From: Eubacteriales bacterium | GTDB taxonomy: Bacteria > Bacillota > Clostridia > Lachnospirales > Lachnospiraceae | Reading direction: 5' to 3' | NCBI GenBank assembly: GCA_030524175.1 | Contig: JAUNHC010000015.1 | Span: forward strand, 1 to 64,000 | DNA: 64,000 bases | In this document: positions 6,832-16,020 of the stretch, in pieces | Position numbering within the stretch: the first letter of the stretch is position 1 | Layout: the number at the start of each line of letters is the position of its first letter | Translations under genes and position numbers: made by a program | The notes under the pieces: model-generated | Told to the model about the DNA's origin: nothing | Seen by the model: the letters and a program-made list of their open reading frames with translations, nothing else | Database searches by the model: none

Positions 6832-7278
6832 ATGAAAGAAAAAAATACATATACAGGTTCTAAAGTCAAAAATCAGTTTACGGCATATCTATTGGGATTT
6901 ATCCGTGGAAGACGTAGAGATTATCTGGTGAAGAAAATCAAGGTCAATACTGCAGAGAATCCAATGGAGGATTTTGCTCAGGTAGAAACGGGGATACCTT
7001 TTGAGGTGCTGCTTGAAACGCAGGCAAAACAAAGGCTTTTGATGGAGGAAGCCAGGGGCTGTTATCCAAGATGGAATGAGATGGAGGATCAGCGCCTGAT
7101 AGAAGCACTATCAAATTTGTGTGAAGATGAAAGGCATCTGATTTACCAACATGTATTTGAAGAGCGTTCTTTTAAAGAAATGAGTCTTCTAAATGGTTTG
7201 CCAGAAGCAAAATGCAAAGGCATTTATTACTATGCAATTAAAAAAATCCGTAACCGGATGGGAGGTGAAAGATCATGA
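6832..7278 (+). CDS. sigma-70-like regulator of conjugative-element type (148 aa)
   Basis: The ATG at 6832 follows GGAGG at 6821-6825; an in-frame TTG at 6796 would place the start inside the hairpin and before the ribosome-binding site. The C-terminal half (LSNLCEDERHLIYQHVFEERSFKEMSLL ... KIRNRM) resembles sigma region 4: a helix that detects LXXLXXXE followed by a helix-turn-helix. Similar small proteins occur in Tn916-like and related conjugative transposons next to an HTH_16 protein, as here. It overlaps the next gene by 4 nt. It probably controls element genes, perhaps excision or transfer. Confidence 0.72.
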   Translation: MKEKNTYTGSKVKNQFTAYLLGFIRGRRRDYLVKKIKVNTAENPMEDFAQVETGIPFEVLLETQAKQRLLMEEARGCYPRWNEMEDQRLIEALSNLCEDERHLIYQHVFEERSFKEMSLLNGLPEAKCKGIYYYAIKKIRNRMGGERS

Positions 7279-7463
7279 ATTTTGAAGAAACATTGTTCCG
7301 GGCAAAGCAGGGAGACACGGAAGCGGTGGAGCAGATATTGGAGATGTACCGTCCGCTTTTAATTAAGAACGCACTGGTAAATGGACGGTTTGATGAAGAT
7401 CTGTATCAGGAGCTGGTGGTGGAAACATTGAAGTGTATTCAGTATTTTCGTTCAAAATTGTAA
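7275..7463 (+). CDS. HTH_16-type conjugative transposon regulator (62 aa)
   Basis: A short protein of the family of helix-turn-helix domains found in conjugative transposons. The sequence FRAKQGDTEAVEQILEMYRPLL followed by DEDLYQELVVETLKCIQYF resembles a truncated sigma region 2. It starts inside the end of the upstream sigma-like gene (ATGA-type overlap), so the two are translationally coupled and may act as a split sigma factor. It is followed by a terminator. Confidence 0.75.
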   Translation: MNFEETLFRAKQGDTEAVEQILEMYRPLLIKNALVNGRFDEDLYQELVVETLKCIQYFRSKL

Positions 7464-8128: not shown

Positions 8129-8487
8129 TTGAAATGGGGGGTGGTTATAGTTTAATAAAGCTGGATATGGTAATAGTTTGTTTCAGCAAAGATCAGGAAT
8201 CGCTGAAAGTTATTCTTGAGAACATATAAACCTCTTAAAATGATATCTTCTTAATGCATATGGAACCATAATTCAAAATCTCAATCTCAATATATGAAAT
8301 GACAAAGCTGATACCTTGCGACAAGTCCTTTGTTTTCAATGCTTTCGGAAGAATTCAGTACAAAAAAATTATCGACAGAGAGAAAAAACGGATCACACTA
8401 TACTTTTGGCTAGTTCACTTTTGAAACCATAAATGATAAAATTAAACAAATCAATATAAATCTTAGATTGATATTATCATTTTGGGG
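8129..8487. other. gene-free, AT-rich stretch
   Basis: No convincing gene, repeat or RNA was found. Short frames here are interrupted by stops. A piece at about 8165-8225 (VIVCFSKDQESLKVILEN) looks like the first strand and helix of a receiver domain, possibly a relic of a response regulator, but this is weak. Confidence 0.4.
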
Positions 8488-8516
8488 TTGACAAGAGAGG
8501 TAACAGAATGGATAAT
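8488..8516 (+). promoter_or_regulatory. near-consensus sigma-A promoter
   Basis: TTGACA (8488-8493) and GATAAT (8511-8516) are separated by exactly 17 nt. The predicted transcription start (about 8522-8523) falls on the first unit of the pentamer tract, so the leader RNA would begin with the repeats. A competing reading is a 13-codon leader peptide starting at ATG 8508 after GAGAGG. Confidence 0.75.
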
Positions 8517-8520
8517 TTGG

Positions 8521-8605
8521 CAGAGCAGAGCAGAGCAGAGATCAGATGAGCAGTGAAGACAAGAGAATAGCAGAGATCAGATTCGCAGAGAAGAGCAGAG
8601 CGATA
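8521..8605 (+). repeat. 5-nt periodic GAG-type tract in leader RNA
   Basis: From 8521 the sequence parses into consecutive 5-nt units without a gap: four CAGAG, then ATCAG, ATGAG, CAGTG, AAGAC, AAGAG, AATAG, CAGAG, ATCAG, ATTCG, CAGAG, AAGAG, CAGAG. Eleven of the first sixteen units end in GAG or TAG, each separated from the next triplet by two bases. This is the geometry of binding sites for the 11-subunit RNA-binding protein TRAP. It may instead be simple repeat expansion. Confidence 0.85.
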
Positions 8606-8650
8606 AGGTTCTGTTTTTTTGTCGAATCCATTTTTATACAGGACTATGTA

Positions 8651-8705
8651 AAGACCGTCGGACAGCAGAGGGCATCAGTGCCCTCTGCTGTCCGATGGTC
8701 TTTTT
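8651..8705 (+). terminator. 24-bp terminator/attenuator stem before the LuxR-type gene
   Basis: The arms 8651-8674 and 8679-8702 pair over 24 bp with one G-U wobble and a 4-nt loop (TCAG), followed by a T-tract (8701-8705). The 3' arm contains CTCTGCT, the complement of AGCAGAG, which is repeated in the upstream pentamer tract. The stem lies only 22 nt before the gene start, so expression of the locus requires readthrough. Confidence 0.85.
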
Positions 8706-8727
8706 GTAAAAAGATACGGAGGTGATG

Positions 8728-11082
8728 ATGATCAGTCAGCAGGATGAAAATTATAGATTCCCGAAAATCGCGGAAAGCAGGATGAGGGCTGCAAAAAAGA
8801 CAAAGACACCGGCGTATCTTTACGGTGTCACAGGGATTGGTAAAACTTCGCTGATCCAACAGCTTTTTGTGCACAGGAGATATCGGTACCACAAGTCTGT
8901 GGAACTGATCGGTGAGGAAACTTCCGTCCATATTCCCAAAGATGAAAAAACATATATCGTTGTTGTGGATGATCTTCAGGAGATTACAGATCCGGAGGAG
9001 CGCAGATGTCTTACAGAGATATTTCGTACATTTCTGGAACAGGGGAATGTGTGGCTGATCCTCATATCCAGAGCCCCGGTGCCCGGATGGCTGATGGACA
9101 CGTATATCCGGTATTCCTTTGTGACCATAGGGGAGGAAGACTTTTATTTTACCAGGGAGCAGCAGGATGCCTATCTGGAAGAAAAACTCACCACCCTGTC
9201 AGGAGCGGAAAAAGAGAAGATGTGGGAGTGCACTCAGGGGGTTCCCATTGCGGTGCGCCTGCTGGTGCTCTATAGAGGAGAGATAGAAGTAACCAGGGAG
9301 GACCTTTTGAATTACCTGGAAAGCCATGTGTATGACCAGTGGGACCTGGAACTGGAAGAGTTTTTGATGGAAATTTCTATTGCAGAGCAGTTTACTAAAG
9401 AACTGGCGGAGATGATAACCGGAAGCAGCCGTGTGGACACCTTGCTGGCCCGGGCAGCGGAGCTTGGAAACTTCTTCGCGCAAAGCGGCAGGGACGGGGT
9501 CTGGCAGTACCGGTGGCAGATGCTGCTGTCCATGCGCCGCCGGCTGCAGAAAAAATACTGCAGGGAAAAAATCCGGCAGTTATACCACCATGCAGGGCTG
9601 TATTATGAACTTCACGACCAGATTCCCATGGCCTTGTCCATGTACGAAAGATATGGGGATACGGAGAGCATTTCCCGGATACTGGTGGCCAATGTCAGGA
9701 AGAACCCGGCCACAGGCCATTACTATGAGCTGAAAGCGCATTATCTGAAGCTGCCGGAAGAAGTGATACTGGAAAGTCCTGTATTGATTGCAGGTATGAG
9801 TATGCTCCAGTCTATCCTGATGAATGAGGAGGAGAGCGAACGCTGGTATCGTGAACTGGAAGCCTACGCCAAAACCCATGGGGGCAGTGAGAGGCGGGAG
9901 GCGAAAAGCCGCCTGCTGTACCTGGATATCGGGCTGCCCCACAGGGGGAGCGTGAACCTGGCGGAGATTTTAAAACATGCAGGGACGCTTCTCAGGGAGA
10001 GAGGAAACTGCCTGCCGGAATTTTCCGTGACCAGCAATCTGCCCTCCATGATGAACGGGGGAAAGGATTTCTGTGAGTGGAGCCGCCATGACAGGGAACT
10101 GGCGGTGTCCATCGGAAAACCTGTGGAGTTTGTCCTTGGAAAATATGGAAAAGGCCTGGTGCCGCTGGCCTTGGCGGAGAGTTTTCTGGAAAAAGGTCTG
10201 GACAGTTACGAAGTCATGAGCCTGGCCCAGAAGGGAAAGCTGGCAGCGGAGAGCGGCGGCAAGATAGAACAGGGTTTCGTGGCGGCGGGCCTCTTGTGCT
10301 GGCTGTCCATCCTGGAGGGGAATGCAGAGTACGCCATGGAACAGATGGAGGCCTTCCGGGGGAGGGCTCAGAGAGAGGCACCCAATCTTCTGAAGAACCT
10401 GGAGGCCTTTGTCTGCCGGGTATCCCTTTATCTCAATGACTATGTTCTGGCGGAGACCTGGATGAAAGAGGCCCCGGATGAGCTGGCGGAATTTGCCACC
10501 ATGGAACGGTTCCGCTACCTGACCAAAGTGCGGGTCTACCTCCAGCAGGGGAAGTATGAACGGGCGTGCGCCCTGGCGGAACAGCTTCTCCACTATGCGG
10601 AGAAAATGCAGCGGACCTATATCCGGATGGAATCCCGCCTGTTGTTAAGCTCCGCTCTGTACGGCCTTCACCGGGAAAAGTGGAGAGAAGTGCTGCAGCA
10701 ATGCATCAGCGAGGCGGAAAGCTATCATTTTGTGCGGCTGCTTTCCCGGGAAGGGCCATTGACGGAGCGAATGCTCCGGGAGGGGGAGTTTGCCTTTCAG
10801 GATGCAGGATTTGAAGAACAGGTGAGGAGAGAATGCAGCCGGATGGCAGGATATTATCCCAGATATCTGGAGCCGGGAAGCAGCGGGGAGATACAACTGC
10901 CGGAAAATGCCCGGAACATCCTCAGGCTGCAGGCGGAGGGCTTTTCAGCCCGTGAGATAGCAGAAAAACTGGGCTTCAGCCTTGCCAATGTAAAATACCA
11001 TATCAGCGAGAATTACCGGAAGCTGGGTGTGAAAAGCCAGGCAGCGGCGGTCAATGAAGCGAGAAAAAGAAATATCCTATAG
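8728..11082 (+). CDS. MalT-like LuxR-family transcriptional regulator with AAA ATPase domain
   Basis: A 784-residue regulator of the STAND/MalT type. Walker A GVTGIGKT is at residues 33-40 and a Walker B-like VVVDDLQE follows near residue 75. The middle ~450 residues are helical and TPR-like, as expected for a sensor that binds an inducer or partner. The C-terminus (last ~60 residues) is a LuxR helix-turn-helix: LQAEGFSAREIAEKLGFS then VKYHISENYRKLGV. The ATG at 8728 is taken because GGAGG (8718-8722) is 5 nt upstream; ATG 8725 is also possible. It is the first gene of a surface-protein locus and probably activates it. Expression appears to be gated by the leader repeats and terminator. Confidence 0.88.
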   Translation: MISQQDENYRFPKIAESRMRAAKKTKTPAYLYGVTGIGKTSLIQQLFVHRRYRYHKSVELIGEETSVHIPKDEKTYIVVVDDLQEITDPEERRCLTEIFRTFLEQGNVWLILISRAPVPGWLMDTYIRYSFVTIGEEDFYFTREQQDAYLEEKLTTLSGAEKEKMWECTQGVPIAVRLLVLYRGEIEVTREDLLNYLESHVYDQWDLELEEFLMEISIAEQFTKELAEMITGSSRVDTLLARAAELGNFFAQSGRDGVWQYRWQMLLSMRRRLQKKYCREKIRQLYHHAGLYYELHDQIPMALSMYERYGDTESISRILVANVRKNPATGHYYELKAHYLKLPEEVILESPVLIAGMSMLQSILMNEEESERWYRELEAYAKTHGGSERREAKSRLLYLDIGLPHRGSVNLAEILKHAGTLLRERGNCLPEFSVTSNLPSMMNGGKDFCEWSRHDRELAVSIGKPVEFVLGKYGKGLVPLALAESFLEKGLDSYEVMSLAQKGKLAAESGGKIEQGFVAAGLLCWLSILEGNAEYAMEQMEAFRGRAQREAPNLLKNLEAFVCRVSLYLNDYVLAETWMKEAPDELAEFATMERFRYLTKVRVYLQQGKYERACALAEQLLHYAEKMQRTYIRMESRLLLSSALYGLHREKWREVLQQCISEAESYHFVRLLSREGPLTERMLREGEFAFQDAGFEEQVRRECSRMAGYYPRYLEPGSSGEIQLPENARNILRLQAEGFSAREIAEKLGFSLANVKYHISENYRKLGVKSQAAAVNEARKRNIL

Positions 11083-11100
11083 AAAAGGGGAAACAACGTG

Positions 11101-14100
11101 ATGAAAAGACAGCGGACAAAGATCAGTCCGGGAATAAAAAAGAAAGGAAAGCGGATACTGGCAACAGTGCTTGCAGTAGTTTTGGTCAGTCCTTATGGGG
11201 ACTACAAAATGCCTGCCACAGTCAAGGCGGATGCTCCGGAGCAAACATTGGAGAGTACTGCTTTGGAGGCGGTATCAGAAACGGCGGTCCCAGAGATAAA
11301 GGTTGCGGATGCTATAGAGGGGACGGAAGCGGCCGCCCCGGAAACAGAAGATCAGGAGCCGGAAAAGCAGCCGGCAGAAGACCCCACAGGACCAGAGACA
11401 CCGCAGACTGAACAGATAGAAACAGAATCCAATGTCATGGAGGAAACATGCATCTGTACAGAGCCTTGTATGGAGGAAACAGTCAATATGGACTGCCCGA
11501 TGTGCAGTGGAGAGAATGGGGATTGGAAAGTCTGCAAAGGAAAGGTGGTCTTTACAGAGGAGCCAGGAGAACAGGAGAGTTGTATTTGTACAATTTCCTG
11601 CAGTGAGAGCCATATCAATGCCGATTGCCCCATCTGTTCTGTTGAGAACGCCGACCTGTCTGTCTGCAAAGGCGAGAGCCCGCAGGCAAGCGTCACCATG
11701 GACGGAATAACCACAGAGTATGCCAATCTTTTGGAGGCGCTGAATGCAGCAAACGAAAAAAATGCTACCGTCACCATGCTTCAGGATGGGACGGGCGAGA
11801 CAAGCAAGGATTACTTTTGGACGATGACAGGCGGCAATGTTACGCTTGACATGAACGGGCATACCCTGATCTGCGAAGGATTTGTAATCGAAGACAACAG
11901 TTCTAAGGGAATGCTGACCATCACAGGTAATGGAAATTTCCAGTCTACAGGCCAGGGAGTGAATGTGATCAGCGGAAAATGTACGATTGAAAACGGAACT
12001 TTTTCCTTAACAGGCTTAGTAAAGTCTTTTTTAATCGGCAACGAAACGAATGGTTTGCTGACTATTAAAGGGGGAACTTTCAAAAGCAGCAGTGTTGAAC
12101 TATTGGGTCCTTCTTCTTCTGTAGAGTCCTCCAGCGCCATATCGGGCGGCACCTTTGACGAGCTAAACTTATACTCAGGTATCAATCTGAAAATAACCGG
12201 CGGTAAATTTGGAAAGATCAATGGCGGGGATACCTCTTGCAGTACATACATTGCGGACGGTTATACGCTCTACGACTACGCAAATAACCAATGGGTGACT
12301 GAACCTGAGAAACTGAGCGCAGTATCCATTGAGAATGTGGAAGTGAAAAGAATACCCGTGAGCATATCTGCACAGCCCCAGGACAAGACGGTCTATTACA
12401 GTCAGTGGACAGAAAAATTGGAAGTGACAGCGCAGACAGTGGACGGCGCCGGGCCCGTTTCTTATCAGTGGTACCGTGTGGGTACCGGAGCCGATGGCGG
12501 GGATGAAGCCATTTCCGGTGCAGCGGAAGCCCAATTTAGGATCCCCGGGGATTTGGATGCAGGAACGCATAACTTTTACTGCATCGCCACCTGTGACGGT
12601 TATCCGGCAAAAAGCAATACGGCTGCGGTTACCGTGCTGCAGTCCGGTATAGACCTTGGAGAGATCAAGACCTACCTGAAGAGGGACGACGTGATTCCAA
12701 AGGAGCAGACGATCTTTACGGGCGAACAGACCATTATGGTGACGGTTACTCCAAAAACTACCGGTAAGGCTCCGGCAGTTATGGCAAGAACGGCCGCTGC
12801 AGAGCCGGCAGCCGGTCAGATGGCGCTCTATGATGAGAAAGGGAACCAGATCGGCCCTGCGGTGGATGCGTCGGTATCCGGTGCCTATTGGATGAACGTT
12901 AACAGCACAGAATTGGGCGTGGGCGTCCATGTCCTTACCGTTAAATATGTGGGCGGCCCCAATGTTGTTTCCGCAGAAGGGACCGTGGAGGTCACGGTCG
13001 TCCCTGCGGCCCGGATTGACAGCCAGGAATACTTCACGCTGGAGGCTGCCTGGGCAGATGCAAAAAAGAACAGCTCCGAAGAAAGTCCCGTCACGGTGAC
13101 TCTGTTGGCGGATGTGGAGGTCAGTTCAGAGTTGACAGTGGAGTCAGAGGAGCACATCATCCTCACCAGTGAACCGGACAAAAACTATACGGTTTCCAGC
13201 ACTATTAATGGGCCTCAAAAAGGAACCATCAGGATGAGTGGCGGAATCTTTGAACTTTTGGGTGGTACAGTCAAATCTCCGGGAAACGGTTATGGCATAT
13301 TTTTATTAGGAGGCAGCGCTTTTCTGAGAGGCGGCAGTATCACCGGTATGCATGGTATCTATCTGGAGGAGTACAAAGCGGCTGCCCGGGTAGAGATATT
13401 CAGTGGTTTTGTAATGCGTGTGTCCAGCGATGGGATAGAGGCACAGATTGGCGGAGAACTCATAATCAATGGCGGGCAGATGGAAGCTGGCAGTACATGT
13501 GTGCATGCAAAAAATGGTGTAACTGTGCGCATCAGCGGAGGAATCATAAAATCGTATTTCAACGGTCATGGTTTAGATGTAAGTGGTAATAGCAGTGCTC
13601 TGGTAGAACTTTCCGGAGGTACCTTTACCGGCAGCGACTCCTCCCCCAGCATTTCTGTGTCCAATACGTCCAATGTAAAAAGCATACTGGCGGAGGGAAA
13701 AGCCTATTATCGGGGCGGGGATACCACAGGAGAACTGATTACCGAAGGACTGGATGGGACGAAGCTTTTAGAAACCGTAACGGTGGGCGACTGCACCCAC
13801 AGCGTAAAAGAATGGACAGATCTGCAGGATGGCACCCATACCGGAGTATGTACGGCCTGTGGAAGTACCATAGTGGCTGCCCATACCTGGGATAGCAGCC
13901 ATTCGAAATGTCCAGACTGCCAGATTGCGTTTGCAGCCAGTGTGGAGAGCAACGGGGAAGAAGCCCTGTTTGCCGCTATAGAACAGGCCTGGGCATACGC
14001 AAAGAAAAACAGTTCAGAAGAAAATGGGGCGACGGTGACGCTCCTGGCGGATGCGGAAGTGTCGGAAGGCCTGACCGTGGAAGCTGGGGAGCACATCATC

Positions 14101-16020
14101 CTTACCTGTCCGGAGGGTGTGGAGTATACGCTTTTCAGTTCAATCAAAATATCGGGAGGAACCTTTGTGCTTACAGGTGGAACGGTCAGTCATGATAATA
14201 AAGATGCTACTATTGATATAACAGGAGGAAGGGCGCTCCTGAAGGGCGGGAAAGTTACAGGCATGCGAGGTGTAAGAATCCCTCAGGATGCTGCAAATGG
14301 AGCAGAAATGGAGATAGATGGAGATTGTGTGATTATAGGAGATGAAGGGGTGCTTATTAGGTCTGGAACGGCTAGGATTAAAGGCGGACAGATCAGCGGA
14401 ACTGGGAAGGGTAACGCGGGATTTGTCGTGTATGGTACCGGAAATGCGAAGATCAGCGGAGGAAGTATACAAGGTAAATTCTGTGGTTTGGAAATGAGAG
14501 GGAAGGGAGTTGTAACGCTTTCAGGAGGAACATTTAGAGGATATTATGGCATTGAGTCAAAGCAACAACCTGTGAAGAACTTTCTGGAAAAGGGAAAAGC
14601 CTATTATCAGGGCGAGGATACCGCAGGAGAACTTATCACGGAAGGACTGGAAGGGACGTGGCTTCCAAAAACCGTAACGGTAGGCGACTGCATCCACTGG
14701 ATAGGGAGCGGAAGCGACAATGGAGACGGTACCCACACTGGAGCATGTGCTGTTTGTGGGCAGGAAGTGATAAAATCCCACAACATGGCAGGTTGGACGG
14801 ATCAGGAGGATGGCACTCATGCCAGAGCCTGTGAAGTATGCGGGTATACGGAGAAACACCCTCACAGCATGACGGTTTGGAAAGACCAGAAAGACGGAAC
14901 TCATAGCAGAAGCTGTTCGGACTGCGAATACACGGAGACGGCGGAGCATATCTGGGACAGGAACCATCCCCAATGCCCGGACTGCCAGCTCACGGCGGTT
15001 GTCCTTGTGGAGATAAAGGGAACAGATACGCTGTTTTCTTCCATGGCAGAAGCCTGGGAATACGCCAAGGAGAACAGTTTAGAAACATCTCCGGCCACGG
15101 TAATGCTTCTGGCGGATGTCACGATTTCGGAAAGTTTATATGTAAATGAAGGAGAATCCCTGATCCTTACCAGTGCAAATGGCATGGAGTATAGCTTGGA
15201 TGTGATCAATAACTATGCTGACGGCATCGTGGTACAGGGCGGAACCTTTGAGATGACGGGAGGCAGCGTCAGCCACAACTTAACTGCTATATCTATAGTG
15301 GGCGGAAAAGTGGTTATTCGGGGCGGCAAGGTAACAGGAGGCTTGACAGGTCTGGCGATGCAGGGTGGAAACGCCATGATCGATGGCGGAACGATCACAG
15401 GGGAACAATATGGAATCGCGGTATTTGAAAATAGCGCTTCGGTATTACTTTCCGGCGGGTGTTTTACTGGAAAAGGCTATGGTAGTATAGTGCAAAATTG
15501 CGAGTTATCACTAAATTCATTTTTGGCAGAGGGCTGCTATTACTACGATGAAACCGGAAATAAGGTAATACCTGCTGATAATGCCTTTATGTTGAGCAAA
15601 AAAACTGTTTTCGTAAAGAACCCGGATGTGGTGTCCTACACCATTTCCATCCCACAGACTGCCATTGCAGGCGGAGAGCCGGTCAATATCGGAATCAATC
15701 AGGAACAGACCTTCAACTTAAACGGCGGCACGGTCAGCGTATCCGTCAGTGGCGGAATCGACGAAAGCGGCAAGCTGACGTTGACGGACAAAGCCAATAC
15801 TGCCAACACCGTGACTTCGGCGCTCTATGTACAGAAGCCAGGAGAAACGGAGGAACAGCCGATCACCAGCTATGAAAATGGAGTGTTTGCATCCTTCACA
15901 AAAGCAGGTGATCCGGCAGCAGCCCTTTCCTTTAAGGAGCCGACGGAAATAAATATTCCGATCGGAAGGTATGAAGGAAACGTCACATTTTCTATTGATT
16001 ATACAGAAGCACAGCAGTAG
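11101..16020 (+). CDS. large exported beta-helix surface protein with cysteine modules
   Basis: This 1639-residue protein starts with a basic N-terminus and a hydrophobic stretch (ILATVLAVVLVSP, residues ~20-32), a signal peptide. Residues ~110-190 hold two related cysteine modules (CICTEPC ... CPMCSGEN; CICTISC ... CPICSVEN). The bulk consists of three ~300-residue repeats, each beginning AWAxAKKNSSEE-x-VTLLAD and continuing with many short ISGGTF/GGTV turns typical of right-handed parallel beta-helices. An Ig-like segment lies near residues 415-510. DGTHTGxCxxCG zinc-ribbon-like linkers separate repeats. The C-terminal ~125 residues (YTISIPQ ... GRYEGNVTFSIDY) resemble the two small exported proteins downstream. 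No sortase motif is seen. An adhesin or glycan-binding role is inferred. Confidence 0.82.
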   Translation: MKRQRTKISPGIKKKGKRILATVLAVVLVSPYGDYKMPATVKADAPEQTLESTALEAVSETAVPEIKVADAIEGTEAAAPETEDQEPEKQPAEDPTGPETPQTEQIETESNVMEETCICTEPCMEETVNMDCPMCSGENGDWKVCKGKVVFTEEPGEQESCICTISCSESHINADCPICSVENADLSVCKGESPQASVTMDGITTEYANLLEALNAANEKNATVTMLQDGTGETSKDYFWTMTGGNVTLDMNGHTLICEGFVIEDNSSKGMLTITGNGNFQSTGQGVNVISGKCTIENGTFSLTGLVKSFLIGNETNGLLTIKGGTFKSSSVELLGPSSSVESSSAISGGTFDELNLYSGINLKITGGKFGKINGGDTSCSTYIADGYTLYDYANNQWVTEPEKLSAVSIENVEVKRIPVSISAQPQDKTVYYSQWTEKLEVTAQTVDGAGPVSYQWYRVGTGADGGDEAISGAAEAQFRIPGDLDAGTHNFYCIATCDGYPAKSNTAAVTVLQSGIDLGEIKTYLKRDDVIPKEQTIFTGEQTIMVTVTPKTTGKAPAVMARTAAAEPAAGQMALYDEKGNQIGPAVDASVSGAYWMNVNSTELGVGVHVLTVKYVGGPNVVSAEGTVEVTVVPAARIDSQEYFTLEAAWADAKKNSSEESPVTVTLLADVEVSSELTVESEEHIILTSEPDKNYTVSSTINGPQKGTIRMSGGIFELLGGTVKSPGNGYGIFLLGGSAFLRGGSITGMHGIYLEEYKAAARVEIFSGFVMRVSSDGIEAQIGGELIINGGQMEAGSTCVHAKNGVTVRISGGIIKSYFNGHGLDVSGNSSALVELSGGTFTGSDSSPSISVSNTSNVKSILAEGKAYYRGGDTTGELITEGLDGTKLLETVTVGDCTHSVKEWTDLQDGTHTGVCTACGSTIVAAHTWDSSHSKCPDCQIAFAASVESNGEEALFAAIEQAWAYAKKNSSEENGATVTLLADAEVSEGLTVEAGEHIILTCPEGVEYTLFSSIKISGGTFVLTGGTVSHDNKDATIDITGGRALLKGGKVTGMRGVRIPQDAANGAEMEIDGDCVIIGDEGVLIRSGTARIKGGQISGTGKGNAGFVVYGTGNAKISGGSIQGKFCGLEMRGKGVVTLSGGTFRGYYGIESKQQPVKNFLEKGKAYYQGEDTAGELITEGLEGTWLPKTVTVGDCIHWIGSGSDNGDGTHTGACAVCGQEVIKSHNMAGWTDQEDGTHARACEVCGYTEKHPHSMTVWKDQKDGTHSRSCSDCEYTETAEHIWDRNHPQCPDCQLTAVVLVEIKGTDTLFSSMAEAWEYAKENSLETSPATVMLLADVTISESLYVNEGESLILTSANGMEYSLDVINNYADGIVVQGGTFEMTGGSVSHNLTAISIVGGKVVIRGGKVTGGLTGLAMQGGNAMIDGGTITGEQYGIAVFENSASVLLSGGCFTGKGYGSIVQNCELSLNSFLAEGCYYYDETGNKVIPADNAFMLSKKTVFVKNPDVVSYTISIPQTAIAGGEPVNIGINQEQTFNLNGGTVSVSVSGGIDESGKLTLTDKANTANTVTSALYVQKPGETEEQPITSYENGVFASFTKAGDPAAALSFKEPTEINIPIGRYEGNVTFSIDYTEAQQ

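Follow-up and report, generated by a model that had tools for sequence, protein, structure and literature searches.

What does a run of GAG-type pentamers do in front of a regulator gene in a gut commensal of the genus Blautia? In the window (the whole 64,000-nt stretch of DNA that was analysed), the initial annotation had described a strict 5-nt tract from 8521, with a promoter abutting it. The period is clear. Sixteen pentamers follow each other in register from 8521 and exactly 11 of them end in GAG or TAG, compared with 5 for the best 16-unit GAG/TAG register outside 8400-8700 on either strand of the whole window. Lag-5 identity over 8520-8600 is 0.67; 2000 dinucleotide shuffles give 0.34 (sd 0.07) and peak at 0.58. 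With the imperfect part of the tract taken alone, the value is 0.60 vs 0.32, and none of 2000 such shuffles reaches it. The described array of about eleven (G/U)AG triplets, 2-3 nt apart, is thus present, and so is the promoter-like element. The strictness did not hold up: only ~8520-8541 is perfect, and the first four GCAGA units (8520-8539) are the sole perfect units of the tract. The earlier description was silent on the ATG at 8508-8510, its Shine-Dalgarno sequence and the two hairpins downstream (Table 1).

Table 1. Features of the tract leader and the genes that follow it (positions in the window).
Feature	Position	Strand	Basis or remark
Weak candidate upstream promoter, TTCACT-17-TAAAAT, TG before second hexamer	8414..8442	+	9/12
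Second candidate upstream promoter, extended -10 TGATATTAT	8469-8477	+	read by eye
TTGACA-17-GATAAT promoter-like element abutting the tract	8488..8516	+	11/12 positions; arrangement recurs before GAGCA tracts
Shine-Dalgarno-like GAGAGGT of leader ORF	8495..8501	+	sequence
Leader ORF, present allele, MDNLAEQSRAEIR, stop TGA 8547-8549	8508..8549	+	sequence
Perfect GCAGA pentamer tract	8520..8541	+	~4.2 units (Tandem Repeats Finder)
Diverged 35-nt duplication, 1.9 copies at 84%, holding the imperfect rest of the tract	8527..8594	+	Tandem Repeats Finder
Through frame from internal ATG, 59 aa, crossing both hairpins, stop TGA 8723-8725	8546..8725	+	aligns with G030 leader
Hairpin 1, terminator-like; 5' arm is the tract end, 3' arm GTTCTGTTTTTTT	8589..8620	+	folding, z -3.8
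Hairpin 2, resembling an intrinsic terminator: 25-bp stem with T run	8650..8705	+	folding, z -12.7
Shine-Dalgarno GGAGGTG of regulator, through-frame leader stop (8723-8725) at its end	8718..8724	+	sequence
MalT/LuxR-type regulator, 786 aa from GTG 8722	8722..11082	+	GerE above cut-off
1640-aa protein, N-terminal signal-like stretch	11098..16020	+	ORF reading; no Pfam match

We propose, with a probability of roughly 0.7, that the tract leader is a phase-variable leader-peptide attenuator of the kind described for the pil1 locus of Streptococcus gallolyticus, here placed before a regulator. The reading frames support this. The GCAGA pentamer is stop-free in all three frames. Counted from the ATG at 8508, one, four or seven units lead to the stop at 8547-8549, two, five or eight units to a stop at 8554-8556, and three, six or nine units to the stop at 8723-8725, within the Shine-Dalgarno sequence of the regulator. 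The two short-frame stops sit 40 and 33 nt ahead of hairpin 1 and 101 and 94 nt ahead of hairpin 2, and the through frame spans both hairpins, 60 codons without a stop. Hairpin 2 (stem at 8650-8703) has a folding energy of about -51 kcal/mol, and both hairpins fold far below shuffled sequences. An intrinsic terminator thus appears, by sequence and folding, between the tract and the first gene, and the number of repeats decides whether a ribosome would stop far before it or within or after it.

In the proposed mechanism, a promoter upstream of 8495 would give the leader RNA, and ribosomes initiating at ATG 8508 would translate on through the GCAGA units. Slipped-strand mispairing would alter the unit number and set the frame past the tract. 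In two of the frames (e.g., with four or five units), the ribosome would stop early, the terminators would form, and the regulator would be off or low. In the third frame (three, six or nine units), the ribosome would trail RNA polymerase through hairpins 1 and 2 and reach the Shine-Dalgarno sequence of the regulator, blocking terminator formation and switching on both the regulator and the genes that follow. With its four units, the present allele is predicted by the published distance rule to be off. The stop of the short ORF overlaps the through-frame ATG as ATGA (8546-8549), and in a pairwise alignment this internal ATG pairs with the leader ATG of a second Blautia species (genome G030). 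Re-initiation at ATG 8546 is therefore possible; it could make the four-unit allele leaky or partly on, and the ATGA overlap is a possible way around the switch.

The genes under such control would not be tryptophan genes, and on this point the initial annotation is supported, a regulator and surface-type genes lying downstream. The regulator more likely starts at ATG 8728 than at GTG 8722, and its MalT-like TPR match falls just under the curated Pfam cut-off (E 2e-11). Small secreted-looking proteins continue to 18477 after the 1640-aa protein, and like it they have no Pfam match. We infer the surface type of these genes from such features; the 1640-aa product is presumably a surface protein, and the regulator may control the genes after it. 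One frame change could then turn the regulator and the following genes on or off.

The closest described systems are the pil1 and pil3 loci of S. gallolyticus. Phase variation at pil1 comes from GCAGA repeats within the gene of a leader peptide, combined with a premature terminator (Danne 2014, PMC3894217), and pil3 has the same design in that account. Loss of the leader ribosome binding site and start codon, or addition of chloramphenicol, lowers pil1 expression, and transcription was mapped to a start (TTGTGT/AATAAT) ahead of the leader gene (PMC3894217). As far as the excerpted text of that report describes these loci, the window shares with them the GCAGA repeats in a Shine-Dalgarno-led leader ORF, the premature terminator, the frame-set ribosome stop and, presumably, a surface structure downstream. 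The same placement of the repeats, in a leader ORF with a Shine-Dalgarno sequence and start codon, is found in G030. The window departs from pil1 and pil3 in the first gene after the leader, which encodes a MalT/LuxR-type regulator, and in the through-frame leader, whose stop falls at the Shine-Dalgarno sequence of that gene; it also has two hairpins, no more than four perfect units and a Blautia host. Of the two options raised initially, pentamer expansion giving phase variation thus fits better than TRAP, with the tract inside a leader ORF ahead of terminators.

Several observations stand against this reading. Only four perfect units are present here and about 5 in G030, compared with pil1 variants of 17-26 units and a pil3 tract of 13 (PMC3894217); slippage may therefore be rare, and switching at the present four-unit tract is probably slow. 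In addition, the best-scoring promoter (8488-8516) predicts an RNA that starts inside the tract and lacks the Shine-Dalgarno sequence and ATG, and the upstream candidates are weak. The one at 8414-8442 scores 10 with its TG bonus, a score reached by 8% of shuffles. The G of the leader ATG lies immediately 5' of the -10 hexamer of TTGACA-17-GATAAT. That element was provisionally set aside as the sole promoter, since the Shine-Dalgarno sequence and ATG would be lost from its transcript. Judged by its sequence, then, the leader appears to belong to the pil1 kind, here placed before a regulator, with a presumed switching that may be slow.

A similar leader in G030, recognizable by sequence, accompanies a regulator 55-56% identical to that of the window. 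It has an upstream extended -10 and, after a Shine-Dalgarno-led ATG, about 5 units; a terminator follows, stop and Shine-Dalgarno sequence overlap as AGGAGGTGA, and the leader sits in the through frame. The protein after the G030 regulator matches the 1640-aa protein over only two short stretches (34% over 107 residues and 42% over 66). Homologues of the regulator occur in 7 of 64 Blautia genomes (E <= 1e-30) and in 4 of 196 genomes of the order (E <= 1e-120), own genome included in both counts. The tract leader precedes just 2 of the 10 homologues whose upstream DNA was read, namely those of the window and G030, and is therefore not a fixed partner of the regulator. The relatives without a tract have other short hairpins or nothing comparable upstream, as judged by eye and by pattern. 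No similar leader was found in plasmid records, and an exact-pattern scan of viral contigs gave no copy with the exact leader start and tract. Rfam gave no match in the window, and a second Rfam search gave 14 matches, none at its gathering score.

Among the open-access papers listed, titles and abstract openings report no such leader before a regulator or in Clostridia. The switch, confined in the literature found to two pilus loci of one Streptococcus, would extend to a gut commensal and to a gene for a regulator, and sequence comparison suggests further such leaders in gut and rumen Clostridia and in other bacteria. A sample scan of genome contigs for five GAGCA units gave at least 117 stretches. 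Among the matches listed, TTGACA lies 29 to 35 nt before the tract in 31 of 88 upstream-region clusters; it is the commonest hexamer in that stretch, where background frequency predicts about 0.2 clusters. We defined a leader as a tract followed by a terminator and then a Shine-Dalgarno-led ORF, and omitted 25 tracts with <450 nt downstream. The 41 TTGAC-preceded tracts (matches listed plus window, G030 and G005) then comprise 24 leaders, 6 coding tracts and 11 others, and the 42 listed without TTGAC comprise 3, 12 and 27, respectively; 10 of 200 random positions are leader-like. The 24 leaders, among the matches listed, represent 15 clusters plus 9 close relatives, and the representatives are not fully independent, since L042, L054, L098, L122 and L129 share similar leader DNA. 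Apart from those of the window and G030, 22 leaders among the matches listed appear by sequence to precede other genes. In 8 of 10 loci read by eye, the gene after the leader has a signal-like start, the exceptions being L058 and L147.

The frame arrangement is also recurrent. A short frame (stop at least 28 nt before the hairpin) together with one that runs into or beyond the hairpin was found in 19 of 23 leaders among the matches listed, L054, with two tracts, being omitted; shuffles gave both states in 11.5 of 23 on average and 17 at most (300 shuffles). Where there are several hairpins, this count uses the first in L042 (weak), L056, L119 and L147 and hairpin 2 in the window, and the sole hairpin of L098 is weak. 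If hairpin 1 is taken for the window instead, its two short frames still end 40 and 33 nt ahead of it. The 4 of 23 listed leaders without both frame states count against the attenuator reading. In a subset of leaders that we chose as "non-homologous", 11 of 12 among the matches listed have both. The 21 listed leaders with a start codon divide into 9 predicted off, 4 that stop just before the hairpin and 8 that enter or pass it. A feature like hairpin 1 accompanies 11 of 30 TTGAC-preceded tracts among the matches listed, compared with 5 of 150 shuffles; for listed tracts without TTGAC the counts are 6 of 45 and 5 of 225. It is therefore only moderately general. Four exact units occur in 3 of 64 Blautia genomes, and the own genome has slightly fewer. 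TTGACA plus tract is rare, occurring in 3 of 299 genomes of the family and, when a longer tract is required, in 3 of 197 Streptococcus genomes, and this rarity too counts against the proposed attenuator.

A possible, though unlikely, alternative is that the window holds a decayed switch, whose tract degenerated and into which a 56-nt start cassette was copied, leaving a leader with terminators that is perhaps re-initiated at ATG 8546. The imperfect tract with its 35-nt duplication, the ATGA overlap and the alignment of ATG 8546 with the G030 leader ATG are consistent with such a history. So is a copy of the cassette: positions 8487-8542 are identical over 56 nt, including four units, to positions 1-56 of contig C39 of genome G000 (L157), where they lead into an acyltransferase frame that is out of frame with the ATG; capsule-type genes lie at the other end of that contig. 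The shared stretch stems either from a branch in the assembly or from gene conversion that involved both tract loci. Conversely, the identity of the cassette suggests recent exchange, and the through frame has kept 60 codons free of stops through both hairpins, which argues against decay.

The promoter-like element that abuts so many tracts is a testable puzzle. Among the matches listed, 28 of 38 TTGACA-preceded tracts have a -10-like hexamer that follows TTGACA at a spacing of 16-18 nt (2.9 expected). This count is somewhat inflated, because an ATG, where it directly precedes the tract, supplies part of the hexamer; seven tracts of this set were added by hand, four of them through a pattern that requires TTGACA. 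RNA would therefore start inside the tract. In the same listed set, a Shine-Dalgarno sequence plus start codon precedes the tract in 27 of 38 (7.2 in block shuffles), and promoters further upstream show a mild excess (a score of at least 9 in 20 of 38, vs 9.1). It is conceivable, if rather improbable in our judgment, that GAGCA/GCAGA tracts travel as a cassette of promoter, Shine-Dalgarno sequence and start codon, in which the internal promoter drives slippage and tunes the switching rate. Such a cassette, with a consensus TTGACA-17-TATAAT-like promoter, would occur in Firmicutes and some other bacteria and would land on coding genes or on terminator leaders. If this is true, the cell tunes its own switching rate by transcribing the repeat.

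In the Streptococcus suis modS gene, a coding contingency locus, the GAGCA repeats lie within the coding gene (PMC8125046). The forward primer used for PCR of that tract contains CTTGACAGCC, with TTGACA as in the window (PMC8125046). The window and modS share the pentamer and its position close to an ORF start. Unlike in the window, the frame in modS decides the protein itself, and the excerpted text of that report describes no terminator leader (PMC8125046). An RNA driven by TTGACA-17-GATAAT and starting at the tract is very unlikely to be the functional product, be it untranslated, read by a protein or the output of a promoter that makes the repeat mutable. The abutting TTGACA and hexamer speak for it, as does the presence of such an element before both coding and leader tracts. 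Against it, pil1 needs the leader ribosome binding site and ATG (PMC3894217), and modS expression tracks the frame of the annotated start codon (PMC8125046), as far as the excerpts of these reports go. The comparable enrichment of Shine-Dalgarno sequence and start codon before the tracts likewise argues against a function of the shorter RNA.

Long GAGCA tracts directly after a start codon are found in G042 (contig C131, L002), G005 (contig C26, L004) and G145 (contig C44, L162). The gene is acyltransferase-like in L002 and AMP-dependent ligase-like in L004; all three are presumably coding contingency loci in the same bacterial family. L004 also carries a tetranucleotide GCTT run on the plus strand about 200 nt past its tract.

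In the TRAP-controlled trp leaders of Bacillus, a terminator comes after about eleven (G/U)AG triplets separated by 2 nt, and the window resembles them in its eleven GAG/TAG units in register ahead of terminators. It differs from them in having a leader ORF through the tract, a unit number that is broad across the tracts listed and, in the tract-bearing genomes searched, no gene for TRAP. The TRAP family (PF02081, mtrB) was absent from all 16 of these genomes, the own genome included, in a search for which Bacillus subtilis served as positive control. The leader recurs in G030, where about 5 units do not keep the count of eleven. Among the matches listed, the 28 uncut TTGAC-preceded clusters (19 tracts cut off at one end omitted) have a median of 11 units, which suits TRAP; it is the middle of a broad spread of 5 to 66, left-truncated by the scan's requirement of at least five units, and exactly 11 units occur in 4 of the 28. 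With the published GCAGA leader acting via translation in the excerpted report (PMC3894217), we give almost no credence to a TRAP-like ring protein that binds the tract and controls termination.

Loci L129, L149, L121 and L053 and, less alike, L040 and L119 have a related hairpin before signal-peptide genes; in the first four, the stops of the three post-tract frames fall far ahead of the hairpin, at the hairpin base and within the hairpin. The open-access literature gave no paper for 15-nt repeats with a repeat peptide. Elsewhere in the window, positions 7200-7446 are repeated in part, at 66-90% identity, in contigs C31, C71, C19 and C12 of the own genome, and these repeats are perhaps parts of related mobile elements.
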